Assembly: GCA_032906765.1 (NCBI GenBank)
Contig: JAJTZB010000001.1
Span: 186,001 to 250,000 of the forward strand
From: Nitrososphaerales archaeon
GTDB lineage: Archaea; Thermoproteota; Nitrososphaeria; Nitrososphaerales; Gagatemarchaeaceae
Reading direction: 5' to 3'
DNA length: 64,000 bases
Position 1 is the stretch's first letter. Each line of letters opens with the position of its first letter. The notes under the pieces are model-generated. The model was not told where the DNA came from and did no database searches. It saw nothing but the letters and a program-made list of their open reading frames with translations. The position numbers and the translations under genes are program-made. Below are positions 8,770-60,991 of this stretch, piece after piece.

Positions 8770-10008
8770 TCACCGTATCACAGAGAGTCTGTCTCCTTTC
8801 TCAATAGAAAGATAGGCAGCGATGTACGCGCCTGCATTCCACGACTGGGCTCGCTGACCGAGAGGTCTTCCGGACCTGCCGTGCAGCCACTCGTTGAAGC
8901 CCAGGCCGTCCCCTTCGCCGCGCACCATGTTCGCGGCTGCCAGCCTGTCCAGCCCCGTCGGGGCTTCCTCAGACCCGAGCTTGTTGAGCGCCCAGACGTA
9001 CAGGCCTCCGACGAAGGGCCAGATGCCCCCGTTGTGGTACGCGAAGGGAGGGCTCCTGTGCTGCTCGGGAAGAGTCGCGTCCAACCGAGTGTCGAACCCC
9101 GGCTCCCCCGCACTGTAGGGTGGGTCGAGGACCCTGACAGGGTAGGGTTTGGACAGCTCCCGCGACCTGATGGCTTCCATGATCGACCTGGATGTCTTGG
9201 ACTCGGCAAGGCCGAAGAGGATGCAGAGGAGGTTCGAGAGGGTATCGAAGTGGGTGTCTATCCTGGCGAACGAGACGTACTGGACGTAGTACTCTTGGGA
9301 GAGGCCCACGGGCCTCTGGGACGAGAGCTGTTCTGCCAGCCTTGGAGAGAAACCGGAGACCCTCTTGGGGCTCTCCTCGTCAGGCAGGAAGACGTCATTG
9401 AACCTTTCCAAGAGCGCTGTGTAATCCAACTTCGAGCCGTCGTTGAGCCTCCTGCCCGCCACAGAGCACAGATCACCGATGCACCTCGTGGCCATAAGGA
9501 GGAGTGCGTTGTTGTAGACTGTCTTTCCTGTCCTCTGAATCGCAGCGTCCATCCAGTCGGCGCCCTGGGGCGAGTCGACCAGCCAAGAGTTGTTCGAGTC
9601 CTGATACCTGAGCCATCTGTAGGCGTCGACGGCTGCATCGAGCGGTTCCTTCAAAAGCGACCGGTCATCTGTTGCGCGATAGAGGTCGGCGAGTCCTATG
9701 ATGTACCACGGGGCCGAGTCGGTCGAGCCTGAGAAACCGAAGTCGGCCCGGCCGTTGGCCGGGTCGTAGAAGTTGGCTATCTGCCCGAGCGGAGACCTGC
9801 TCCTCGCGAAGGTGTCTACGGTCGCCCTGGCGCACGACAGCAGCGTTTCGTCCCCGAGCATGTTCGAGCCGAGGAAGGAAATGAATGAATCTCTGGCCCA
9901 CACCTGGTTGTAGTACGAGCTGGAAGCCTTCAGCCCCCGAGGAGTGGAGTTCCCTTTGAGCACCTCGACAGCTGCGTCGAAGGTTCTCTCCGTCGCGCTG
10001 CTCGTCAC
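8770..10008 (-). CDS. Alpha/alpha-barrel glycoside hydrolase (amylo-1,6-glucosidase / neutral invertase-like)
   Basis: A 412-residue cytoplasmic protein (no signal peptide) with the (alpha/alpha)6-barrel glycosidase pattern: VWARDSFI near residue 31, DSAPWYIIGLADLYR near 97, DSPQGADWMDA near 147 and YHNGGIWPFVGGLYVWAL near 325. The WxRD and HNGG-WP motifs are shared by glycogen-debranching C-terminal domains (GDE_C/GH15-like) and GH100 invertases; the acidic residues in WARD and GADWMDA are the likely catalytic set. Substrate is unresolved. It follows a CoxG-like gene on the same strand by 13 bases. Confidence 0.75.
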   Translation of the reverse strand: MTSSATERTFDAAVEVLKGNSTPRGLKASSSYYNQVWARDSFISFLGSNMLGDETLLSCARATVDTFARSRSPLGQIANFYDPANGRADFGFSGSTDSAPWYIIGLADLYRATDDRSLLKEPLDAAVDAYRWLRYQDSNNSWLVDSPQGADWMDAAIQRTGKTVYNNALLLMATRCIGDLCSVAGRRLNDGSKLDYTALLERFNDVFLPDEESPKRVSGFSPRLAEQLSSQRPVGLSQEYYVQYVSFARIDTHFDTLSNLLCILFGLAESKTSRSIMEAIRSRELSKPYPVRVLDPPYSAGEPGFDTRLDATLPEQHRSPPFAYHNGGIWPFVGGLYVWALNKLGSEEAPTGLDRLAAANMVRGEGDGLGFNEWLHGRSGRPLGQRAQSWNAGAYIAAYLSIEKGDRLSVIR

Positions 10009-10021
10009 CCTTCCCCTCCTG

Positions 10022-10471
10022 TTAGCCGGCCGTCCGCTCTATTGCTCCCGTGATACCCCCGAAGATTTCCTCCACCTTCTTGGTGGCGAAGCTCTTCAGC
10101 AAGGTCGAGCCGAGGCCTGCCATTATACCCGTGATCTCTGCGTCCGCTGACCAGGCCATCGTTGTTGGGGAGTCCCCGGTCAGTGTGAAAGTGCTTACGA
10201 CCTTCAGGTTGCTGCCGCTCCCCGAGCCCTCGGCAACGAGTTTGGCCCGTGCTGGCGGTTCCGTGTCGGAGACTGTCATTCTGACCTTGAAGGCGCTCGA
10301 GACAACCGCGACCCTCACTTTGATTCTCGCTTCGAGTGTGGACCCGTCCAGGACCCTGACATCCTCGGCGTCTTGGAGTGTCTTCGCCAAGAACTCAGGG
10401 TTGACGAGAAGGCCGAAGACGTGATCACGCTTGGCGTTGATGCTCGTCGAGCCATCCAAGTGGAGCTGCAT
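10022..10471 (-). CDS. CoxG-like SRPBCC protein, copy 2
   Basis: A 149-residue SRPBCC protein of the CoxG type (start HLDGSTSINAKRDHVFGLLVNPEFLAKTLQD; later TMAWSADAEITGIMAGLGSTLL). It stands between an acyl-CoA dehydrogenase and a glycosidase, with no Mo-hydroxylase gene nearby, so its role may have drifted from CoxG proper. A box A lies upstream, so it can be transcribed on its own. Confidence 0.8.
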   Translation of the reverse strand: MQLHLDGSTSINAKRDHVFGLLVNPEFLAKTLQDAEDVRVLDGSTLEARIKVRVAVVSSAFKVRMTVSDTEPPARAKLVAEGSGSGSNLKVVSTFTLTGDSPTTMAWSADAEITGIMAGLGSTLLKSFATKKVEEIFGGITGAIERTAG

Positions 10472-10504: not shown

Positions 10505-11761
10505 TCACGTGTAGGCCTCGAAGTCTTTCCCGAGGACTGAGGAAGCGATCTTCAACTCCATGATTTCGTCCGTCCCTTCGTATATTCTGGCGACGCGGGT
10601 GTCGAGAAAATGCTTTGCCACCGGAGACATTATCGAATAGCCGAAGCCGCCGAAAATCTGAAGAGCCCTATCGGCTGATTCAAACGCAGCCCTCGATGCA
10701 ACGTACTTGGCCAGCGCCGACAGCCTATCCGTCTCCGCCCTCAGCGCGAGGTTCTGAGCGTCCTTCTCGTACTCGTCCTTCTTCATGGCAGCCCTGTAGA
10801 CGAGCCACCTGCTGGCCTCCAGGCTGGACGCTATGAAAGCAACGTGCCTTTGGACGAGCTGATGCCTGCCGATCAGCTTGCCGTGCTGGAACCGCGAGGT
10901 GGCCCTCTCCTTCACCTGGTTCAGGCAGTCCTCCATCACACCGAGACACCCTGAACTTATGCCGATTCTTCCGTTCAGGAGGGCGGAGTAAGCAACAGCG
11001 AAGCCCTTTCCCTCCGGTCCTAGCATGTCCTCTCTGGGTACGAACACGCTATCAAATGAAAGGAGCGCGGTGTCAGAGGTGAAGAGACCAACCTTCTCCT
11101 CGAGCCTCATGTCGACGTTGAAACCCTCCTGCTTTGTGTCGACGAGGAAGGCACTCAGGCCTTCTGACCTGCCCTTGGGATAGGCGAACACGATTATGTT
11201 GGTGGCTATCGAGCCGTTTGAGATCAGGTACTTCGACCCTGTCAGCCTGAAACCACTGCCGTCTGCAACATAGGACGTCTTCAGCGAGGCGGGGTCGCTG
11301 CCTGCCTCTGGTTCAGTGAGGCCGTAGGCAAGAATCGCCTCTCCTCGCGCGGCTTTGGAGAGATACCTCTGCTTCTGCTCCTCGTTCCCCCAGTCTTGGA
11401 TCGAGAGGCTGCCCAAGGACTGGTGGACGTCGGCGAAGGTGACGACGCCCATCCCTGCCTGCCCGAGCCTCTCGAGGAATAGAGCGTGCACGAGCTGCCT
11501 AGCCCCCCTCCCGCCGTACTTCTCCTCGATTGGCACGCCCAGCAGGTTGTGGCTCTTGAGGATCCTTGGCACCTCAGGGTTGTACTTCCGTTCCACATAC
11601 TTCTCGAATTCTGAGATGACCAGTTCGTTGGCGGCAGCGTCCGTGTCCTCGAGTATCGATAGGTCATCCTTGCCCAACCCCGCTATCTTCGCTACCTCTC
11701 TCATCGACTTCTCGAAGAGTTGTTCCATTCGGCTCCCGTCGGCGCGGGATGCTTTAACCAT
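10505..11761 (-). CDS. Acyl-CoA dehydrogenase
   Basis: A 418-residue flavoenzyme oxidising acyl-CoA to enoyl-CoA. Family marks: YGLTEPEAGSDPASLKT and GSKYLISNG (substrate/FAD loops), GRIGISSGCLGVMEDCL, and the C-terminal QIFGGFGY...RVARIYEGTDEIM, whose EGT element holds the usual catalytic Glu. It is complete. Together with the enoyl-CoA hydratase at 17355 and the propionyl-CoA module at 19-26 kb it points to fatty- or branched-chain acid breakdown. It shares a promoter region with the divergent zinc-ribbon gene. Confidence 0.95.
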   Translation of the reverse strand: MVKASRADGSRMEQLFEKSMREVAKIAGLGKDDLSILEDTDAAANELVISEFEKYVERKYNPEVPRILKSHNLLGVPIEEKYGGRGARQLVHALFLERLGQAGMGVVTFADVHQSLGSLSIQDWGNEEQKQRYLSKAARGEAILAYGLTEPEAGSDPASLKTSYVADGSGFRLTGSKYLISNGSIATNIIVFAYPKGRSEGLSAFLVDTKQEGFNVDMRLEEKVGLFTSDTALLSFDSVFVPREDMLGPEGKGFAVAYSALLNGRIGISSGCLGVMEDCLNQVKERATSRFQHGKLIGRHQLVQRHVAFIASSLEASRWLVYRAAMKKDEYEKDAQNLALRAETDRLSALAKYVASRAAFESADRALQIFGGFGYSIMSPVAKHFLDTRVARIYEGTDEIMELKIASSVLGKDFEAYT

Positions 11762-42135: not shown

Positions 42136-42185
42136 CGGTCACTGATTTCCAAGGATGAAAATCAGGCATGGGAAACGTCGTTCCA

Positions 42186-42194
42186 TCTTTTATT
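42186..42194 (+). promoter_or_regulatory. Box A for the sulfur-transfer operon
   Basis: TCTTTTATT, about 28 bases before ATG 42218. It precedes the DsrE-TusA-SQR-like genes. Confidence 0.6.
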
Positions 42195-42217
42195 CCGACC
42201 GCCTCTCCGCCATACAC

Positions 42218-42724
42218 ATGGCTACGATACTGGCCCAGAAGGAGAGGGTTGAGAGGGTCGAGGCGGCCCAAAGCAAGCTCAGCATAATCCTGTCGAAAGG
42301 GTCCCTGGACATGGCGTACCCTGCGTTCATGCTCGCCACAACGGCGGCGACCATGGGGAGCGAGGTGCACGTTTTCTTCACGTTCTGGGGCCTCGACGTA
42401 GTAAACAGAAAGAAGGTGGACTCGCTCAAGGTTTCGCCGGTCGGCAACCCAGGCATGCCCATGCCTAACATATTGGGGATGCTTCCGGGAATGACGGCGA
42501 TGGCAACTAGGATGATGAAGGGGAAGATGCAAAAGATCAAGATGCCCGCAATACCCGACATGATCCGCACAGCGAAGGACCTGGGCGTGAAGTTGCACGC
42601 TTGCTCGACCACAATGGACGTTCTCGGCGTGAAGAAGGAGGACCTCATTCCCGAGATCGATGACGTGGTGGGAGCTGCGACGTTCCTCCAGATGAGCGAG
42701 GGCGGTCAGACGCTCTTCATCTAA
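42218..42724 (+). CDS. DsrE2-like sulfur carrier/peroxiredoxin-fold protein
   Basis: A 168-residue DsrE/DsrF-like protein. The conserved Cys is in LHACSTTMDVLGV, matching the ACxMSMDVMG active-site region of DsrE2, and the fold pattern KLSIILSKGSLDMAYPAFMLATTAATMG...VHVFFTFWGLDVV is typical. DsrE proteins accept persulfide sulfur and pass it to TusA. The Met-rich insertion (GMPMPNILGMLPGMTAMATRMM) is also characteristic of DsrE2 and may be membrane-associated. ATG 42218 is preferred over 42155 because of box A spacing. TusA follows 12 bases later. Confidence 0.88.
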   Translation: MATILAQKERVERVEAAQSKLSIILSKGSLDMAYPAFMLATTAATMGSEVHVFFTFWGLDVVNRKKVDSLKVSPVGNPGMPMPNILGMLPGMTAMATRMMKGKMQKIKMPAIPDMIRTAKDLGVKLHACSTTMDVLGVKKEDLIPEIDDVVGAATFLQMSEGGQTLFI

Positions 42725-42736
42725 GGGGGGGTGTGA

Positions 42737-42985
42737 ATGAGCGCCCCGGCAAGCAGGCGGCAGGTCGATTCAAGGGGCAGCTTCTGCCCAGGCCCCATCA
42801 CCGACCTCTTCAAGGCGTACAGGGCAGCGAACGTCGGAGACGAAATCGAACTCCTGGCCACAGATCCGGCCGCCAAGAGCGACGTCGAAGCGTGGGCAGC
42901 GAGGAGCGGCAACCAGGTTCTCGAGGTGGCGCAGGAGAAGGACTACCTCCGGATAGTCATCAAGGTAACGAGGAAGGGTAGGTAG
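42737..42985 (+). CDS. tusA: TusA-like sulfur carrier protein
   Basis: An 82-residue protein with the TusA active-site pattern VDSRGSFCPGPITDLFKAY; the Cys near residue 18 carries persulfide. Rest: GDEIELLATDP, DVEAWAARSGN. It sits between DsrE2-like and SQR-like genes with short gaps, so all three are probably co-transcribed. A second TusA domain fused to a cupin is encoded at 46692. Confidence 0.92.
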   Translation: MSAPASRRQVDSRGSFCPGPITDLFKAYRAANVGDEIELLATDPAAKSDVEAWAARSGNQVLEVAQEKDYLRIVIKVTRKGR

Positions 42986-44212
42986 ATGGTCAAGAGGCTG
43001 GTCGTCCTCGGCGCGGGGACGGGCGGGACGCTACTCGCCAACCTCCTCAGCAGCAGGCTCCACGACCGCATTAGGTCCGGAGAGATAGAGGTCCTCCTCT
43101 TGGGCGATGGGTTCAGGCACTATTTCCAACCCGCCAATCTGGACATCGCATTCAAGGGGGTGCCTCCGGATTCGGAGAGCAGGAATGAGTCGGACCTCCT
43201 GAAACCAGGCGTCACCTTCGTGCCTGACCCGGCCGCCAAAGTTGACCTGGCAAACAGGAGAATCACGACAGCGGGCGGGACAACCTACGGCTACGACTTT
43301 CTGGTGATGGCGCCTGGAGCAGAGGCGGCGCCAGAGATGATGCCGGGACTGAAGGAGGGTTCGCTCAACTTCCACACGGGACCGTGGGGCGCGGAGATGG
43401 TCTGGGACGCGGTCCGGAACTTCAAGAAGGGGAAGGTCGTGGTCGCAATCGCAGGCGTGCCGTACAAGTGTCCGCCGTCGCCAGACGAAGCCCTATTCCT
43501 CCTCGAAGAGCACTTCAAGAAGCGCGGGGTGAAGGAGGACGTCGAACTGACCTTGCTGACGCCCTACCCGAGGTCCTATCCGGCCGAGAAGACAGCGAAA
43601 ATCGTCGGGCCGCTTCTCGAGGAGAGAAATATCAAGGTCGTTCCCTTCTTCAACATGGAGTCGGTCGACCCGACCAAGAAGAGGGTGTATTCCCTGGAAG
43701 GCGAAGAGATTCCTTACGACCTTCTGATCTCTGTGCCGCCCCACAGGGGCACCCGCGTGGTGAGAGACTCAGGGATAGGGGATCAAGAGGGGTGGATTCC
43801 GACCGACAGGAGAAACCTCAGGATAAAGGGGCATGATGACGCGTTCGCAATCGGAGATGCTACAGACATACCAGTCTCGAAGTCAGGCGTGGTCGCGCAC
43901 CTCGAGTCCAAGGTGGTAGCCAACAATCTGATTGCTGCGATGGATGGTGAACCGATAGAGTACGCGTACAACGGCAGGATAAACTGCCCAATGGAACTGG
44001 GGCACCACAGAGCGATTTTCGTTTCCGCGACCTACGAGAGTCCGCCAACGCCCCAGAGCCCGTCCTTGGTGAAGTACGCCATGAAGAGGGGGTTCGCCTC
44101 AATCTATTGGTCAACCCTGTCAGGAAGCTTGGAATGGCTTATGGACGCCTATTTCGGCGAAACAAGCAAGAAGGTCGAGATGTCTCGGCCCATGCCTGCC
44201 TCCCAAGTTTGA
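42986..44212 (+). CDS. Sulfide:quinone oxidoreductase-like flavoprotein
   Basis: A 408-residue FAD enzyme of the SQR/FCSD family. GAGTGGTLLANLL is the N-terminal dinucleotide fold. Two Cys that correspond to the redox pair are present: GVPYKCPPSPDEALF and GRINCPMELG. A third Cys found in many SQRs, in the first third of the chain, is missing, so the sulfur chemistry may differ. The C-terminal part has an amphipathic region (MKRGFASIYWSTLSGSLEWLMDAYFG) suited for membrane attachment. ATG directly follows the TusA stop (TAGATG). Confidence 0.88.
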   Translation: MVKRLVVLGAGTGGTLLANLLSSRLHDRIRSGEIEVLLLGDGFRHYFQPANLDIAFKGVPPDSESRNESDLLKPGVTFVPDPAAKVDLANRRITTAGGTTYGYDFLVMAPGAEAAPEMMPGLKEGSLNFHTGPWGAEMVWDAVRNFKKGKVVVAIAGVPYKCPPSPDEALFLLEEHFKKRGVKEDVELTLLTPYPRSYPAEKTAKIVGPLLEERNIKVVPFFNMESVDPTKKRVYSLEGEEIPYDLLISVPPHRGTRVVRDSGIGDQEGWIPTDRRNLRIKGHDDAFAIGDATDIPVSKSGVVAHLESKVVANNLIAAMDGEPIEYAYNGRINCPMELGHHRAIFVSATYESPPTPQSPSLVKYAMKRGFASIYWSTLSGSLEWLMDAYFGETSKKVEMSRPMPASQV

Positions 44213-44268: not shown

Positions 44269-44820
44269 TTGAAAATGCAATCACTCCAAGGGAAATGGGC
44301 TGGCAGATTCATCTGGGCCGCCGTCATCCAAGGACTCGTGGCGACCATTATCACGGTAATGGTCCTCGACCCTATCCAATACTTCACAGGTACTCCCACG
44401 TACTACTCTCCGGCAAGAGTAATCGCCGGAGGAAGCGGTGGCACCTGGTTCTTCACCGGGTACATCTCATACATGGTCGTCGGCGTCGTTGCGACTGCTG
44501 TCACGGCCATCTTCTACTTCTACATCGAGGGCATCAAAGGCAAAGTGTACAAGGGCATCACCAACTTCATGGCATGGGGCCATCTCATATTCATGAACGT
44601 GGGCGTGGCGGGCTCGATGTTCCTGATGATGTGGGGAGGCTACTTGGCAGGGTGGGGCCAGTCGGCTGCGAGCGCTGGTGGCGGCGGGCTCAACGCCGGC
44701 CAAGTCCATGTGCAGATTCTTGGATGGATGGTCGAACCAATCGGCGCCTTCATACTGCTCGCAGCAGTCGGCGCCCTCCTAGGCGGACTAGGATACATAG
44801 TCAGAAGCAGGACGCCTTAA
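44269..44820 (+). CDS. Four-helix membrane protein with conserved histidines
   Basis: A 183-residue membrane protein with helices at about 12-36, 62-92, 100-125 and 150-175. His residues in MAWGHLIFMNVG and QVHVQILGWM are also present in the truncated copy at 47650 and could be haem or quinone-site ligands. I cannot name the family; context right after the SQR-like gene suggests a membrane anchor or electron-transfer partner. The gene ends inside a strong terminator hairpin. TTG 44269 or ATG 44275 start. Confidence 0.7.
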   Translation: MKMQSLQGKWAGRFIWAAVIQGLVATIITVMVLDPIQYFTGTPTYYSPARVIAGGSGGTWFFTGYISYMVVGVVATAVTAIFYFYIEGIKGKVYKGITNFMAWGHLIFMNVGVAGSMFLMMWGGYLAGWGQSAASAGGGGLNAGQVHVQILGWMVEPIGAFILLAAVGALLGGLGYIVRSRTP

Positions 44821-46691: not shown

Positions 46692-47318
46692 ATGGAAAAC
46701 ACGACTCAGCAATCGCCGCGAATACTTGTTGATTCAAGGGGCATCTGGTGTCCACCGACACCCCTTACGGATCTGTTCAAGGCGTGGCGTCAGGGGAACA
46801 TCGGTGACGAGATCGAACTTCTGGCAACAGAGCCTAACACAGAAGCCGACGTAAGAGCGTGGGCAAAGAAGAGTGGCAACCGGATAATTGAGGTTGAGCA
46901 GAAGAAAGACTATGTGAGGGTGGTCGTGAAAGTTACTCGGAAGGGGAAGAGTATGCTGAAGCTGGCCGCGTCAAGGAGGAGCTTCAGCGAACCCGACGAA
47001 ACCAAAGAGACGCCGAAAGGAAGACTCCAGCTCGTCACAATCGGGGGATTCACGCTCGGACTGCGTTCACTACAGCCTGGTTGGAAGTGGTCGACATCGA
47101 TGAAGCCGATTGCTAAGACGGAGACTTGCGAGATACGTCACATGGGGTACGTGCTCTCTGGTCAGATGGCATTTTCGATGGACGATGGAACGGTTCTTGA
47201 GGTCGGCGCAGGAGATGTCTTTGATGTCCAAGCAGGCCACGACGCGTGGACCGTTGGCAAGGACCCATTCGTCTTCGTCGACCTAATTGGTGCAGTCAAT
47301 GCTCAGGGGAGAGTCTGA
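46692..47318 (+). CDS. TusA-cupin fusion protein
   Basis: A 208-residue fusion in one uninterrupted frame. Residues about 10-90 are a TusA domain: VDSRGIWCPPTPLTDLFKAW holds the persulfide Cys, followed by GDEIELLATEPNTEADVRAWAKKSGN; it is close to the stand-alone TusA at 42737. Residues about 118-208 are a cupin: GLRSLQPGWKWS, ETCEIRHMGYVLSGQMAFSM, LEVGAGDVFDVQAGHDAW. One metal-site His (RHMGYV) and one in AGHDAW are visible. A sulfur carrier joined to a cupin suggests transfer of sulfane sulfur to, or oxidation by, the cupin (persulfide dioxygenase-like), an inference. Confidence 0.85.
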   Translation: MENTTQQSPRILVDSRGIWCPPTPLTDLFKAWRQGNIGDEIELLATEPNTEADVRAWAKKSGNRIIEVEQKKDYVRVVVKVTRKGKSMLKLAASRRSFSEPDETKETPKGRLQLVTIGGFTLGLRSLQPGWKWSTSMKPIAKTETCEIRHMGYVLSGQMAFSMDDGTVLEVGAGDVFDVQAGHDAWTVGKDPFVFVDLIGAVNAQGRV

Positions 47319-47649: not shown

Positions 47650-47982
47650 ATGTCCGTCAGTTCAACTGGCAGATTCTACTTCTACATCGAAGGGATTCTG
47701 GGCAGAGTCTACAGCGGCCTGACGTCTTACCTGGCTTGGGGGCACCTCGTCCTCATGACCGTGGGCGTTGACGTCTCAATGTTCCTCATGATGTGGGGAG
47801 GCTACATGGCAGGTTACGCCTTGGCACCGACCGCTCAAGGAGGCGGAGGTCTCACAACACTCCAAGTTCACGAGCAGATACTCGGCCAGCTAACATGCCC
47901 AATCGGATTCTTCATCGGACTGACAGCACTAGGCGCCCTCCTCAGGGGCCTAGGTTACATACTCAGAAGCAGGCAGAAGTAA
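47650..47982 (+). pseudogene. 5'-truncated copy of the 44269 membrane gene
   Basis: The 110-residue frame matches the 44269 protein from its residue about 84 to the end: FYFYIEGI, YLAWGHLVLMTVG, SMFLMMWGGYMAG, GGGGL, LQVHEQILG, GALLRGLGYILRSR. The first two transmembrane helices are missing. Similarity begins abruptly at about 47672. ATG 47650 could give a short protein with two helices, so function is not excluded; both conserved His remain. Its end carries the same kind of stop-in-loop terminator as the full-length gene. Confidence 0.65.
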
Positions 47983-58652: not shown

Positions 58653-58964
58653 ATGCCCCAGTATGCCAGGATAAAGTTGACGAGCGCAAACCTCGAAGAA
58701 CTTGAGAAGGTGGCCAAGGACATCAAGGATATCGCTGACAAGACTGGAGTCAAGGTCAAGGGACCCCAGCCGCTCCCGACAAAGAAGCTCAAGATCACGA
58801 CGCGCAAGGCTCCGACGGGCGAGGGGAGCCACACATTCGACCACTGGCAGCTGCGGATTCACAGGAGGATACTCGACGTCCAGCCGGACGACAGGACGAT
58901 GAGGGCGATAACGAAGCTCAGGATCCCAGAGGACGTTAAGGTCGAGCTCATCCTTACTGCGTAG
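58653..58964 (+). CDS. rps10: Ribosomal protein uS10 (archaeal S10p)
   Basis: A 103-residue small-subunit protein: ARIKLTSANLEELEKVAKDI, KGPQPLPTKKLKITTRKAP, GSHTFDHWQLRIHRRILDV. ATG 58653 gives the usual archaeal length. It stands alone; in many archaea this gene follows translation factor EF-1A, which is not present here. It overlaps the convergent intein-bearing epimerase gene by 11 bases. Confidence 0.96.
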   Translation: MPQYARIKLTSANLEELEKVAKDIKDIADKTGVKVKGPQPLPTKKLKITTRKAPTGEGSHTFDHWQLRIHRRILDVQPDDRTMRAITKLRIPEDVKVELILTA

Positions 58965-60966
58965 GCTGGTTCTTCACCCAAGCGATTGTACGCCGCAACC
59001 CCTCCTCCAGCGTCAGCTCGTACCTGTAGCCGAGGAGCCTCCTTATCTTGGCGGTCGAGGGATAGCTCACCTGCGGTTCTCGCTCGAGTTCGCTCCTCGG
59101 GGGGGCCAAGTCTACTCTTGACTTCGACCCTGTCAGCCGCTTCACAGTTTGTGCAAGCTGCCTTATCGTTACTGCTTTCTCTCCTCCGAAGTTGAATGCT
59201 TCCCCGACAGCCCTCTCGTTAGTCAGCAGAGCGAGGGTCAATCTGGCATAGTTGACCGCATGTGAGGGCGCCGTTGTGTCCCTTCCCCTGTTGAAGAGGG
59301 TCAGCGGCTGGTCGGCGAGGCAGGCTCTGATGAACCTGATGGTCGCCCTGCTGGGCTGGTCGTACTCCCCGAAGAGAAGCCAGCTGCGTGTAATCGACAC
59401 TGGTAGCTGCTTGCTCCTGAAGTAGCTCGTCGCCATGTTCTCGCAGACGACCTTCGAGTAGTCGTAGGGAACTCTTGGGTCGAACGGGGCCCCCTCTGCG
59501 ACCGGGTTCTTCTTGGGCGCTCCGAAGACGTTGGCGGAGGAGTTTCCTGACAAGGTTATTCTTCCGTTTCTCTCGACGAGGAAATTATGGTTCTCGACCT
59601 CAGCGCACCAGACCTCTCCAGAGTAGTAATCAGAGTGGGCGTTGCCGTATTCTGTTCCGAACATGGGCGATCCAGATTTGGCAGAGATTCCAATTCTGTA
59701 GCTCGTCGATTCAATCTTGCGGCCGGCGATGTATGATACGTTATGATCTAGGGAGACTGTGGTGAAGTACCCAAGCTTCGCACAGAGTTCGAGTGTATCT
59801 TCCATGAGACCGGTCGATACAGTAGTTAATTCCTTTCCTCTGGACCCATCCGAATCGAGTAGGCCCTGTAGAAGAGACCTCAACAACACGACCGGAGCAT
59901 CAAGCATCCATCTTGGAATCCTCTTGAAGTGTGCGTTCTTCGAATCTGATCCTGCATCATAGCAATCGTCAAAAATCCTGTAAAGGGGGTCAGAAGTGAA
60001 GTATAGACTCTTGTCGTACCCCGACCATTTGATGGAGTCGCGTGTCAGCACTTCCTCAAGCCGCTGCCTGCACTTGTCTGCCTTCGGGACGTACAAGAAC
60101 ACGCGTGGGTAGAAGTACTTTCTTTTCACCGGCGTGGTTGGCCGCCTCTCAAAACGCCCTGAACCGTCGCGTCTCTGCATTAGCAGGCTCTTGGACAGTC
60201 CACTGGTAACGGTCTGGAACTGTCTTCCGTTTAGGCTTCCATCTCCAATGAACACCCCCGTCAAGTAAAACAGGTCGACAGGGTTGGGAAGGGATTCCGG
60301 AGGAACCGGTGGCGTGATTTGGGTCCCGACCCAACGGCCAGTCACCAGTCTGCAGACTGAACGAGCAGCGACTACATCCGCTCTTTCAAAGGTTGTACGC
60401 CAACCACGCTGCCCCTTAGAACTTGTGGGTGTCTGCACGAGCATGTTGTGGTTGGGTGTCACCATCAAATCTAGCCTTCTTCCCTTGAAGTGAACCATCT
60501 GGCCCTCATACGGATAGATGAACACGCGCTGCACCGGCTTGGGTTCCAAGATTCCCGTCCGCATGTTATGCGTGAAGACGTAGTCACCAGCATTCAGGTC
60601 GGTGTAATGCTTCAGCCCATCAGTCGTGAATGCCCTTGTTCGGGCGTCATGGCATGCGTAGACGAAGCGAGAGACATTCTTCTTGAGTGCGAGTTCGAGC
60701 ATGTTCAGAGTTCCGAAGCAGTTCACCTCGAAGCAGAGCTTCGGGTTCTCGATCGTCTTCTTGATCTCCGTGAGGGCTGCCAGGTGGACGACTGCGTCGA
60801 AGTCGAGGGAGGCGAGCTTCGTGAACACGAAATCCTTGTCGAGAAGGTTCCCGCTGACGGGCCACCCTGCGAGGTCGGTCGGAATCACCTCCACGTGGTT
60901 CTTCGCCAGGAAGTCGACGAGGTTCCTCCCGACCATTCCGGAGGCGCCAGTAACGAGTACCTTCAA
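58954..60966 (-). CDS. Sugar-nucleotide epimerase (extended SDR) interrupted by an intein
   Basis: A 670-residue precursor. The host protein (299 residues after splicing) is an extended SDR: MKVLVTGASGMVGRN at the N-terminus, Tyr501-x3-Lys505 in PYDYSK, and a GalE/RmlB-like C-terminus ending in EEGLRRTIAWVK. The intein is residues 105-475. After removal the join reads FVYA-SSANVFG, the conserved Ser region of SDRs. TTG 60966 gives the canonical start and sits about 31 bases from the box A at 60992; TTG 60981 is an alternative. Likely substrate: UDP- or dTDP-sugar. Confidence 0.93.
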   Translation of the reverse strand: MKVLVTGASGMVGRNLVDFLAKNHVEVIPTDLAGWPVSGNLLDKDFVFTKLASLDFDAVVHLAALTEIKKTIENPKLCFEVNCFGTLNMLELALKKNVSRFVYACHDARTRAFTTDGLKHYTDLNAGDYVFTHNMRTGILEPKPVQRVFIYPYEGQMVHFKGRRLDLMVTPNHNMLVQTPTSSKGQRGWRTTFERADVVAARSVCRLVTGRWVGTQITPPVPPESLPNPVDLFYLTGVFIGDGSLNGRQFQTVTSGLSKSLLMQRRDGSGRFERRPTTPVKRKYFYPRVFLYVPKADKCRQRLEEVLTRDSIKWSGYDKSLYFTSDPLYRIFDDCYDAGSDSKNAHFKRIPRWMLDAPVVLLRSLLQGLLDSDGSRGKELTTVSTGLMEDTLELCAKLGYFTTVSLDHNVSYIAGRKIESTSYRIGISAKSGSPMFGTEYGNAHSDYYSGEVWCAEVENHNFLVERNGRITLSGNSSANVFGAPKKNPVAEGAPFDPRVPYDYSKVVCENMATSYFRSKQLPVSITRSWLLFGEYDQPSRATIRFIRACLADQPLTLFNRGRDTTAPSHAVNYARLTLALLTNERAVGEAFNFGGEKAVTIRQLAQTVKRLTGSKSRVDLAPPRSELEREPQVSYPSTAKIRRLLGYRYELTLEEGLRRTIAWVKNQPTQ
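59542..60654 (-). other. Intein with LAGLIDADG homing endonuclease
   Basis: 371 residues in frame. N-terminus Cys105 in CHDARTRAFTTDGLKHY, then GDYVF; block B LMVTPNHNMLV (TxxH). Two LAGLIDADG-like dodecapeptides: YLTGVFIGDGSLN (234-246) and SLLQGLLDSDGSR (364-376), with acidic Asp242 and Asp373. C-terminal blocks EVWCAEVENHNFLVERNG and ITLSGN-S: Asn475 with +1 Ser476; the penultimate residue is Gly in place of the more common His. All splicing residues needed by the class are present, so it is probably active. Confidence 0.92.
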
Positions 60967-60991
60967 CTTCCTGCTCGCCAACCCTCCGAGT

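Follow-up and report, generated by a model that had tools for sequence, protein, structure and literature searches.

Proteins of the TusA family (PF01206), including Ta1170 (1pav), E. coli TusA and YeeD/TsuB, share one fold with a conserved Cys before the first helix, and the active-site spacing of TusA is CPxP. In Sulfolobales, TusA stands beside DsrE2 in an archaeon, in sets that include an hdr cluster, as described in PMC5127849. The idea of fusing a sulfur carrier to a sulfur-processing domain is shared with the Rho-PDO (rhodanese-persulfide dioxygenase) proteins, which combine a rhodanese with a metallo-beta-lactamase (MBL) fold; ETHE1-type persulfide dioxygenases are metallo-beta-lactamase proteins with a 'PDO-like MBL fold' (PMC13047784), not cupins. 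Cupin-fold thiol dioxygenases use three His, MDO being termed '3-His coordinated' in PMC10966181.

The protein described here joins a TusA domain to a cupin instead of a rhodanese to an MBL fold. Its gene lies in a 64,000-nucleotide stretch of archaeal DNA (the window) from a genome of 1.77 Mb in 13 contigs. The host belongs to the group I.1c Thaumarchaeota, in a Gagatemarchaeaceae-like family that also holds REEA66 (Thaumarchaeota), A_CRE_07 (Nitrososphaerales) and Candidatus Gagatemarchaeum stordalenia bog_1369. The gene and its domains are as follows.

46692..47318 (+), TusA-cupin fusion gene (open reading frame, Pfam, AlphaFold2 model and fold match; recurs in four other genomes)
46719..46937 (+), TusA domain, residues 10-82 (PF01206, E 2e-12; 1pav; 3lvj_C)
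46998..47294 (+), cupin domain, residues about 103-201 (PF07883, E 1.3e-4; family alignment, residue counts and fold matches)

The initial annotation described an uninterrupted 208-codon frame encoding a TusA domain with its Cys in GIWCPPTP, and both points hold: the frame runs for 208 codons plus stop from an ATG with no stop inside, and the Cys is Cys20 (codon 46749-46751). PF01206 matches residues 13-80 with 47.2 bits against a curated cut-off of 28.6 (E 2e-12), and the domain resembles Ta1170 (1pav) at E 3.5e-12. Cupin_2 (PF07883) matches residues 150-197 at E 1.3e-4, with 22.1 bits, under its curated cut-off of 27.2. An AlphaFold2 model from a 52-row alignment has a mean pLDDT of 88 and a pTM of 0.61, which would leave the predicted orientation of the two domains relative to each other loose. 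Model residues 7-82 resemble E. coli TusA in the IscS-TusA complex (3lvj_C; Z 11.2, rmsd 2.0, 75 aligned) and the N-terminal part resembles TsuB (8k1r_A; Z 11.1, rmsd 2.1, 76 aligned), while residues 91-207 form a double-stranded beta-helix similar to many cupins (Z 10-11 over about 100 residues); the absence of a family from these fold-match lists was not counted as evidence. Because Pfam matches and both folds of the model agree, the pairing of TusA and cupin in the window protein is real.

Compared with its family, the TusA part carries a C-terminal cupin and has one extra residue inserted at its active Cys, reading CPPTP in five of five fusions versus CPGP in 12 of 12 stand-alone TusA proteins. 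The fusions thus depart from the CPxP spacing of TusA sulfur carriers, and the domain is therefore classed, by sequence, as a variant TusA domain rather than a proven carrier; the insertion might weaken persulfide transfer. Cys20 itself is invariant in all five fusions, is directly preceded by Trp in each, and lies at the N-terminus of helix 1, given a helix at residues 24-34 in the model. We infer that this Cys would be loaded with persulfide.

The cupin was said to have conserved His, and this stands in part: H150 and H183 are invariant, but the canonical HxH pair is absent. Canonical cupin motif 1 is G(X)5HXH(X)3-4E(X)6G, and many cupins do without it. Here the corresponding stretch is K-T-E-T-C-E-I-R-H-M-G-Y-V-L-S-G, with H150 at the Glu place and C146 at that of the second His. 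The HxH positions are E144, which is variable, and Cys146; HxH is missing from, and Cys146 takes the second His place in, all 51 cupins counted (47 stand-alone, 4 fused). Cys146 (codon 47127-47129), His150 (47139-47141) and His183 (47238-47240) are invariant in the five fusions. Together with Asp184 and Trp186 they recur in every one of the 47 stand-alone relatives that were sampled (out of 77 stand-alone cupin loci; alignment A2), and Thr143 in 46 of 47. The contig-scan loci were retrieved with the pattern [EQ]PGW[RK]W[ST]T, which by itself imposes the conservation of P129, G130, W131 and W133; C146, H150, H183, D184 and W186 fall outside this pattern, so their conservation is not built in. 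In a profile (HMM) alignment to the oxalate decarboxylase OxdC, H150 aligns with a Glu and H183 with a His, which we take to be metal ligands of OxdC. Because these pocket residues are invariant and two of them align in this way, Cys146, His150 and His183 are predicted to form a metal site, and the cupin would bind metal there.

This domain belongs to a group of small cupins with the signature C-x3-H...GHDAW, found across many bacterial phyla and in Nitrososphaerota. They give weak matches to Pfam Cupin_2/Cupin_3 and have no NCBIfam family; the group is widespread and uncharacterised. Its members show 41-54% identity to the fusion's cupin and keep the same conserved residues, but differ in standing alone and in having no sulfur-gene neighbours: phmmer searches with TusA, DsrE2 and SQR (sulfide:quinone oxidoreductase) over the ORFs of the 77 stand-alone loci, called by a simple longest-ORF rule, returned none, none and one distant SQR-like match, respectively.

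Among relatives of the host, a draw of 151 genomes contained the full-length fusion in 5 of 46 family genomes (the window's own, G014, G033, G031 and G013) and, among the matches listed, in none of 105 genomes from outside the family. The domain pair that the initial annotation had wanted sought in other archaea is thus present there, with its Cys kept in 5/5. A class draw of 400 genomes (E up to 1e-12) returned the same five fusions and no further one, a phylum draw of 398 (E up to 1e-15) only that of the window, and a contig scan, in the best 80 of 256 confirmed loci, the three of G033, G031 and G013 and none beyond. Fourteen plasmid records yielded the cupin part alone and no fusion, and in long matches such as L094 (24-203) TusA was not in the same frame as the cupin. 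As a TusA joined to a GHDAW-type cupin, the fusion was therefore not found outside the host's family. A sixth genome, G030, carries a frame-broken copy that has lost most of the cupin. An assembly chimera was rejected because the same fusion occurs in five genomes at about 60% identity. Two separate genes were likewise considered and dismissed; the window has an ATG at codon 88, but G014 has no start in the linker.

The other four fusions are 57-65% identical to the window protein. All five form one clade in a TusA tree (17 rows, 12 of them stand-alone TusA; support 100/99) and one in a cupin tree (61 rows, 56 of them stand-alone cupins; SH-aLRT 99), so a single fusion event is the simple reading. 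The rows nearest the fusions in the TusA tree are the stand-alone TusA of the window and of G091, with weak support (82/79, 85/97), and the nearest own-genome paralogue by blastp is the stand-alone TusA at 42737..42985 (64% over 77 aa); the fused TusA has the look of a copy that arose by duplication from the TusA of the operon. Over ten pairs, pN/pS is 0.27-0.52 for TusA, 0.11-0.24 for the cupin and 0.21-0.72 for the linker, values that are rough because synonymous sites are close to saturated. Purifying selection acts on both domains, and this, with the recurrence in five genomes and the single clade for each domain, shows that the fused frame is no product of chance.

The surroundings of the gene differ from the Sulfolobales sets of PMC5127849 in having SQR and the TusA-cupin protein instead of an hdr cluster. 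In the window they comprise the following genes.

42155..42724 (+), DsrE2-like sulfur carrier (PF13686, E 2.7e-43; NF047629, E 4.5e-39, below cut-off)
42737..42985 (+), stand-alone TusA (PF01206, E 5.7e-19; blastp; own-genome search)
42986..44212 (+), SQR-like flavoprotein (NF049943 type III SQR, E 1.5e-90, below cut-off; PDB SQR 8dhk, E 4.4e-35)
44269..44820 (+), membrane protein downstream of SQR, without a match in Pfam or NCBIfam
47650..47982 (+), truncated paralogue of that membrane protein, directly downstream of the fusion

The stand-alone TusA, placed by the initial annotation about 4 kb away, indeed lies 3.7 kb upstream of the fusion, in an operon with DsrE2 and SQR, and SQR ends 2.5 kb upstream. 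A relative of the first membrane protein (47%) occurs near SQR-TusA-DsrE2 in G091. The two membrane paralogues are 61% identical over 108 aa, the second lacking the N-terminal 73 residues, and their DNA is 71% alike. The paired membrane genes and the paired TusA copies suggest a putative segmental duplication.

DsrE2-TusA-SQR lies within 3 kb of the fusion in four of the five genomes. In G033 and G031 the fusion adjoins the module and is divergent from DsrE2, and G014 has it in convergent orientation behind SQR and an ArsR gene. G013 has an intact fusion with DsrE2, TusA, SQR and ArsR all absent from the 16 kb examined, and its genome gave no SQR or DsrE2 match; the fusion can therefore exist without the module. 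SQR occurs in 13 of the 46 family genomes. The fusion accompanies it in 4 of these 13, as against 1 of 33 SQR-negative genomes (one-sided Fisher 0.018, uncorrected for kinship); with nine of the 13 lacking it, the fusion is dispensable. In G030 the broken fusion has as neighbours an 80-residue C-terminal remnant of SQR and an ArsR gene of this same type. Fusion and SQR having both decayed, the cluster decayed jointly, which we read as the joint decay of one functional unit.

ArsR genes with two conserved Cys lie by the cluster in G014, G033, G031 and G030, at these positions.

L032, 1998-2444, ArsR regulator by the cluster
L033, about 10887-11195, ArsR regulator by the cluster
L034, about 9963-10271, ArsR regulator by the cluster
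L036, 8323-8694, ArsR regulator by the cluster

The G014 copy, the one on which the profile was run, is weakly BigR-like (NF040642, E 4e-15, below cut-off), and these regulators are candidate sulfide or persulfide sensors. A possible upstream operator, CGAATATTCG, is perfect in G031, matches 9/10 in G033 and G030 and at most 8/10 in the window, and was dropped because the match is too thin across genomes.

Other loci were noted in passing. An Hdr-like set lies on the same contig of the host genome, some 56-62 kb upstream of the fusion gene.

L165, 671-7046 (contig C1, about 170.7-177.0 kb), HdrA2-like protein with C-terminal FlpD domain, HdrC/CCG-type iron-sulfur protein and EtfAB pair

These genes may encode an Hdr-Etf electron-bifurcating complex. 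Second tusA-dsrE2 pairs near CCG-domain (Hdr-type) genes occur in other genomes of the family, namely G012 (C1:919886-921805), G009 (C5:35314-40801) and G031 (C71:36864-41098), and perhaps represent an sHdr-like set. Elsewhere in the window, the Pfam match of an NAD-dependent epimerase (58954-60981, minus strand) falls into two parts, residues 8-109 and 479 onward, which are separated by an insert of about 370 residues that begins with Cys and ends HN-like before Ser. This insert looks like an intein, and no intein family matched it at E 1e-3.

The occurrence of the domain pair in other archaea, the Cys kept in all five and the module nearby in four of five make a sulfane-sulfur role for the TusA-cupin protein likely on gene context; this context leaves undecided which chemistry is involved. 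The reading that we place first, and regard as having about an even chance, is that of a sulfane-sulfur carrier accessory to the SQR-DsrE2-TusA module, with a tethered cupin that accepts, converts or reads the sulfur. The fusion would have arisen once, in the host's family, when a duplicated operon TusA became fused with a stand-alone cupin. In a module for sulfide oxidation (or detoxification), SQR would turn sulfide into sulfane sulfur, DsrE2 and TusA would pass it on, Cys20 of the fusion would receive it, and the cupin, through its Cys146/His150/His183 pocket (the predicted metal site), may accept, convert or read it. The stand-alone cupin relatives, which have no sulfur context, count against this carrier role, as do the intact fusion of G013, the nine SQR-positive family genomes that lack a fusion, the CPPTP insertion and the loosely predicted domain orientation.

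Next in rank, possible but on balance unlikely, is a cupin that performs no sulfur chemistry and acts as a sensor or scaffold, dimerising the carrier or binding a ligand or metal and so reporting TusA loading. Regulators occur among the neighbours of stand-alone cupins (AraC 5, LuxR 4 and TetR 3, families that may overlap, in 78 neighbours picked from 118 references, these being the closest genes on either flank, of at most 420 aa, out of 281 neighbours), the BigR-like two-Cys ArsR genes (likeness from G014 only) stand by the cluster in four genomes, and CENP-C cupins, which serve in dimerisation as other cupin modules do, are among the fold matches. An invariant Cys146/His150/His183/Asp184/Trp186 pocket, however, exceeds the need of a pure scaffold, and the protein has neither a DNA-binding nor a signalling domain attached. 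That the fusion presents sulfane sulfur to the cupin for oxidation was proposed in the initial annotation; its sulfane-sulfur part survives on context, but its extension to an O2-dependent dioxygenase, turning the sulfur on Cys20 into sulfite, we consider improbable. The cupin fold of the model and its matches, two conserved His plus one Cys, and gene linkage to SQR all suit it. Yet the three His with an HxH pair of CDO, MDO and ADO are lacking, Cys146 occupying the second position in all 51 cupins counted, and the two folds of the window protein are those of TusA and of a cupin, not the MBL fold with HxHxDH of ETHE1-type enzymes. Relatives of the cupin include Geobacter sp. AOG1 (L109), Syntrophaceae (L114) and Desulfobulbaceae (L097), from mostly anaerobic lineages, and the same genome encodes an ETHE1/GloB-like MBL protein as a separate gene (L141; E 3e-25 to human ETHE1, TIGR03413 score below cut-off; GloB and ETHE1 are not distinguished here); both observations weigh against this reading.

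Least probable, and ranked last, is a neutral fusion of two separately acting domains joined by chance after tusA duplication. Its presence in only 5 of 46 family genomes, a poorly conserved linker (pN/pS 0.21-0.72) and the window's ATG at the domain border, which could start a separate cupin, fit such an origin. Against it, the fused frame is kept in 5/5 although the proteins have diverged to about 60% identity, purifying selection acts on both domains, and the G014 stretch examined, from TusA end to cupin core, contains no ATG, GTG or TTG save one GTG inside TusA.

TusA and cupin are each known, and their combination appears to be new; no paper on a TusA-cupin protein was found among the entries screened in the open-licence literature and the few subscription journals covered, and a term search of the main text of the family's main genomics paper (PMC10640624) returned no sulfide, thiosulfate, TusA or cupin. 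A bolder proposal goes beyond the accessory-carrier role, namely that the protein founds a novel class of sulfane-sulfur enzymes, handing its own persulfide substrate to a tethered Cys-His-His cupin. We hold this doubtful. If true, it would provide a dedicated persulfide sink in SQR-bearing soil archaea, unlike MBL dioxygenases, sHdr or Dsr, and would make the stand-alone GHDAW cupins candidates for related thiol or persulfide chemistry.

Fusion and gene linkage tie a widespread cupin family with no assigned job to sulfane sulfur in one lineage, and therefore give a testable handle on that family. For the host, the locus points to a sulfide-oxidising or sulfide-detoxifying SQR-DsrE2-TusA module in group I.1c soil Thaumarchaeota.
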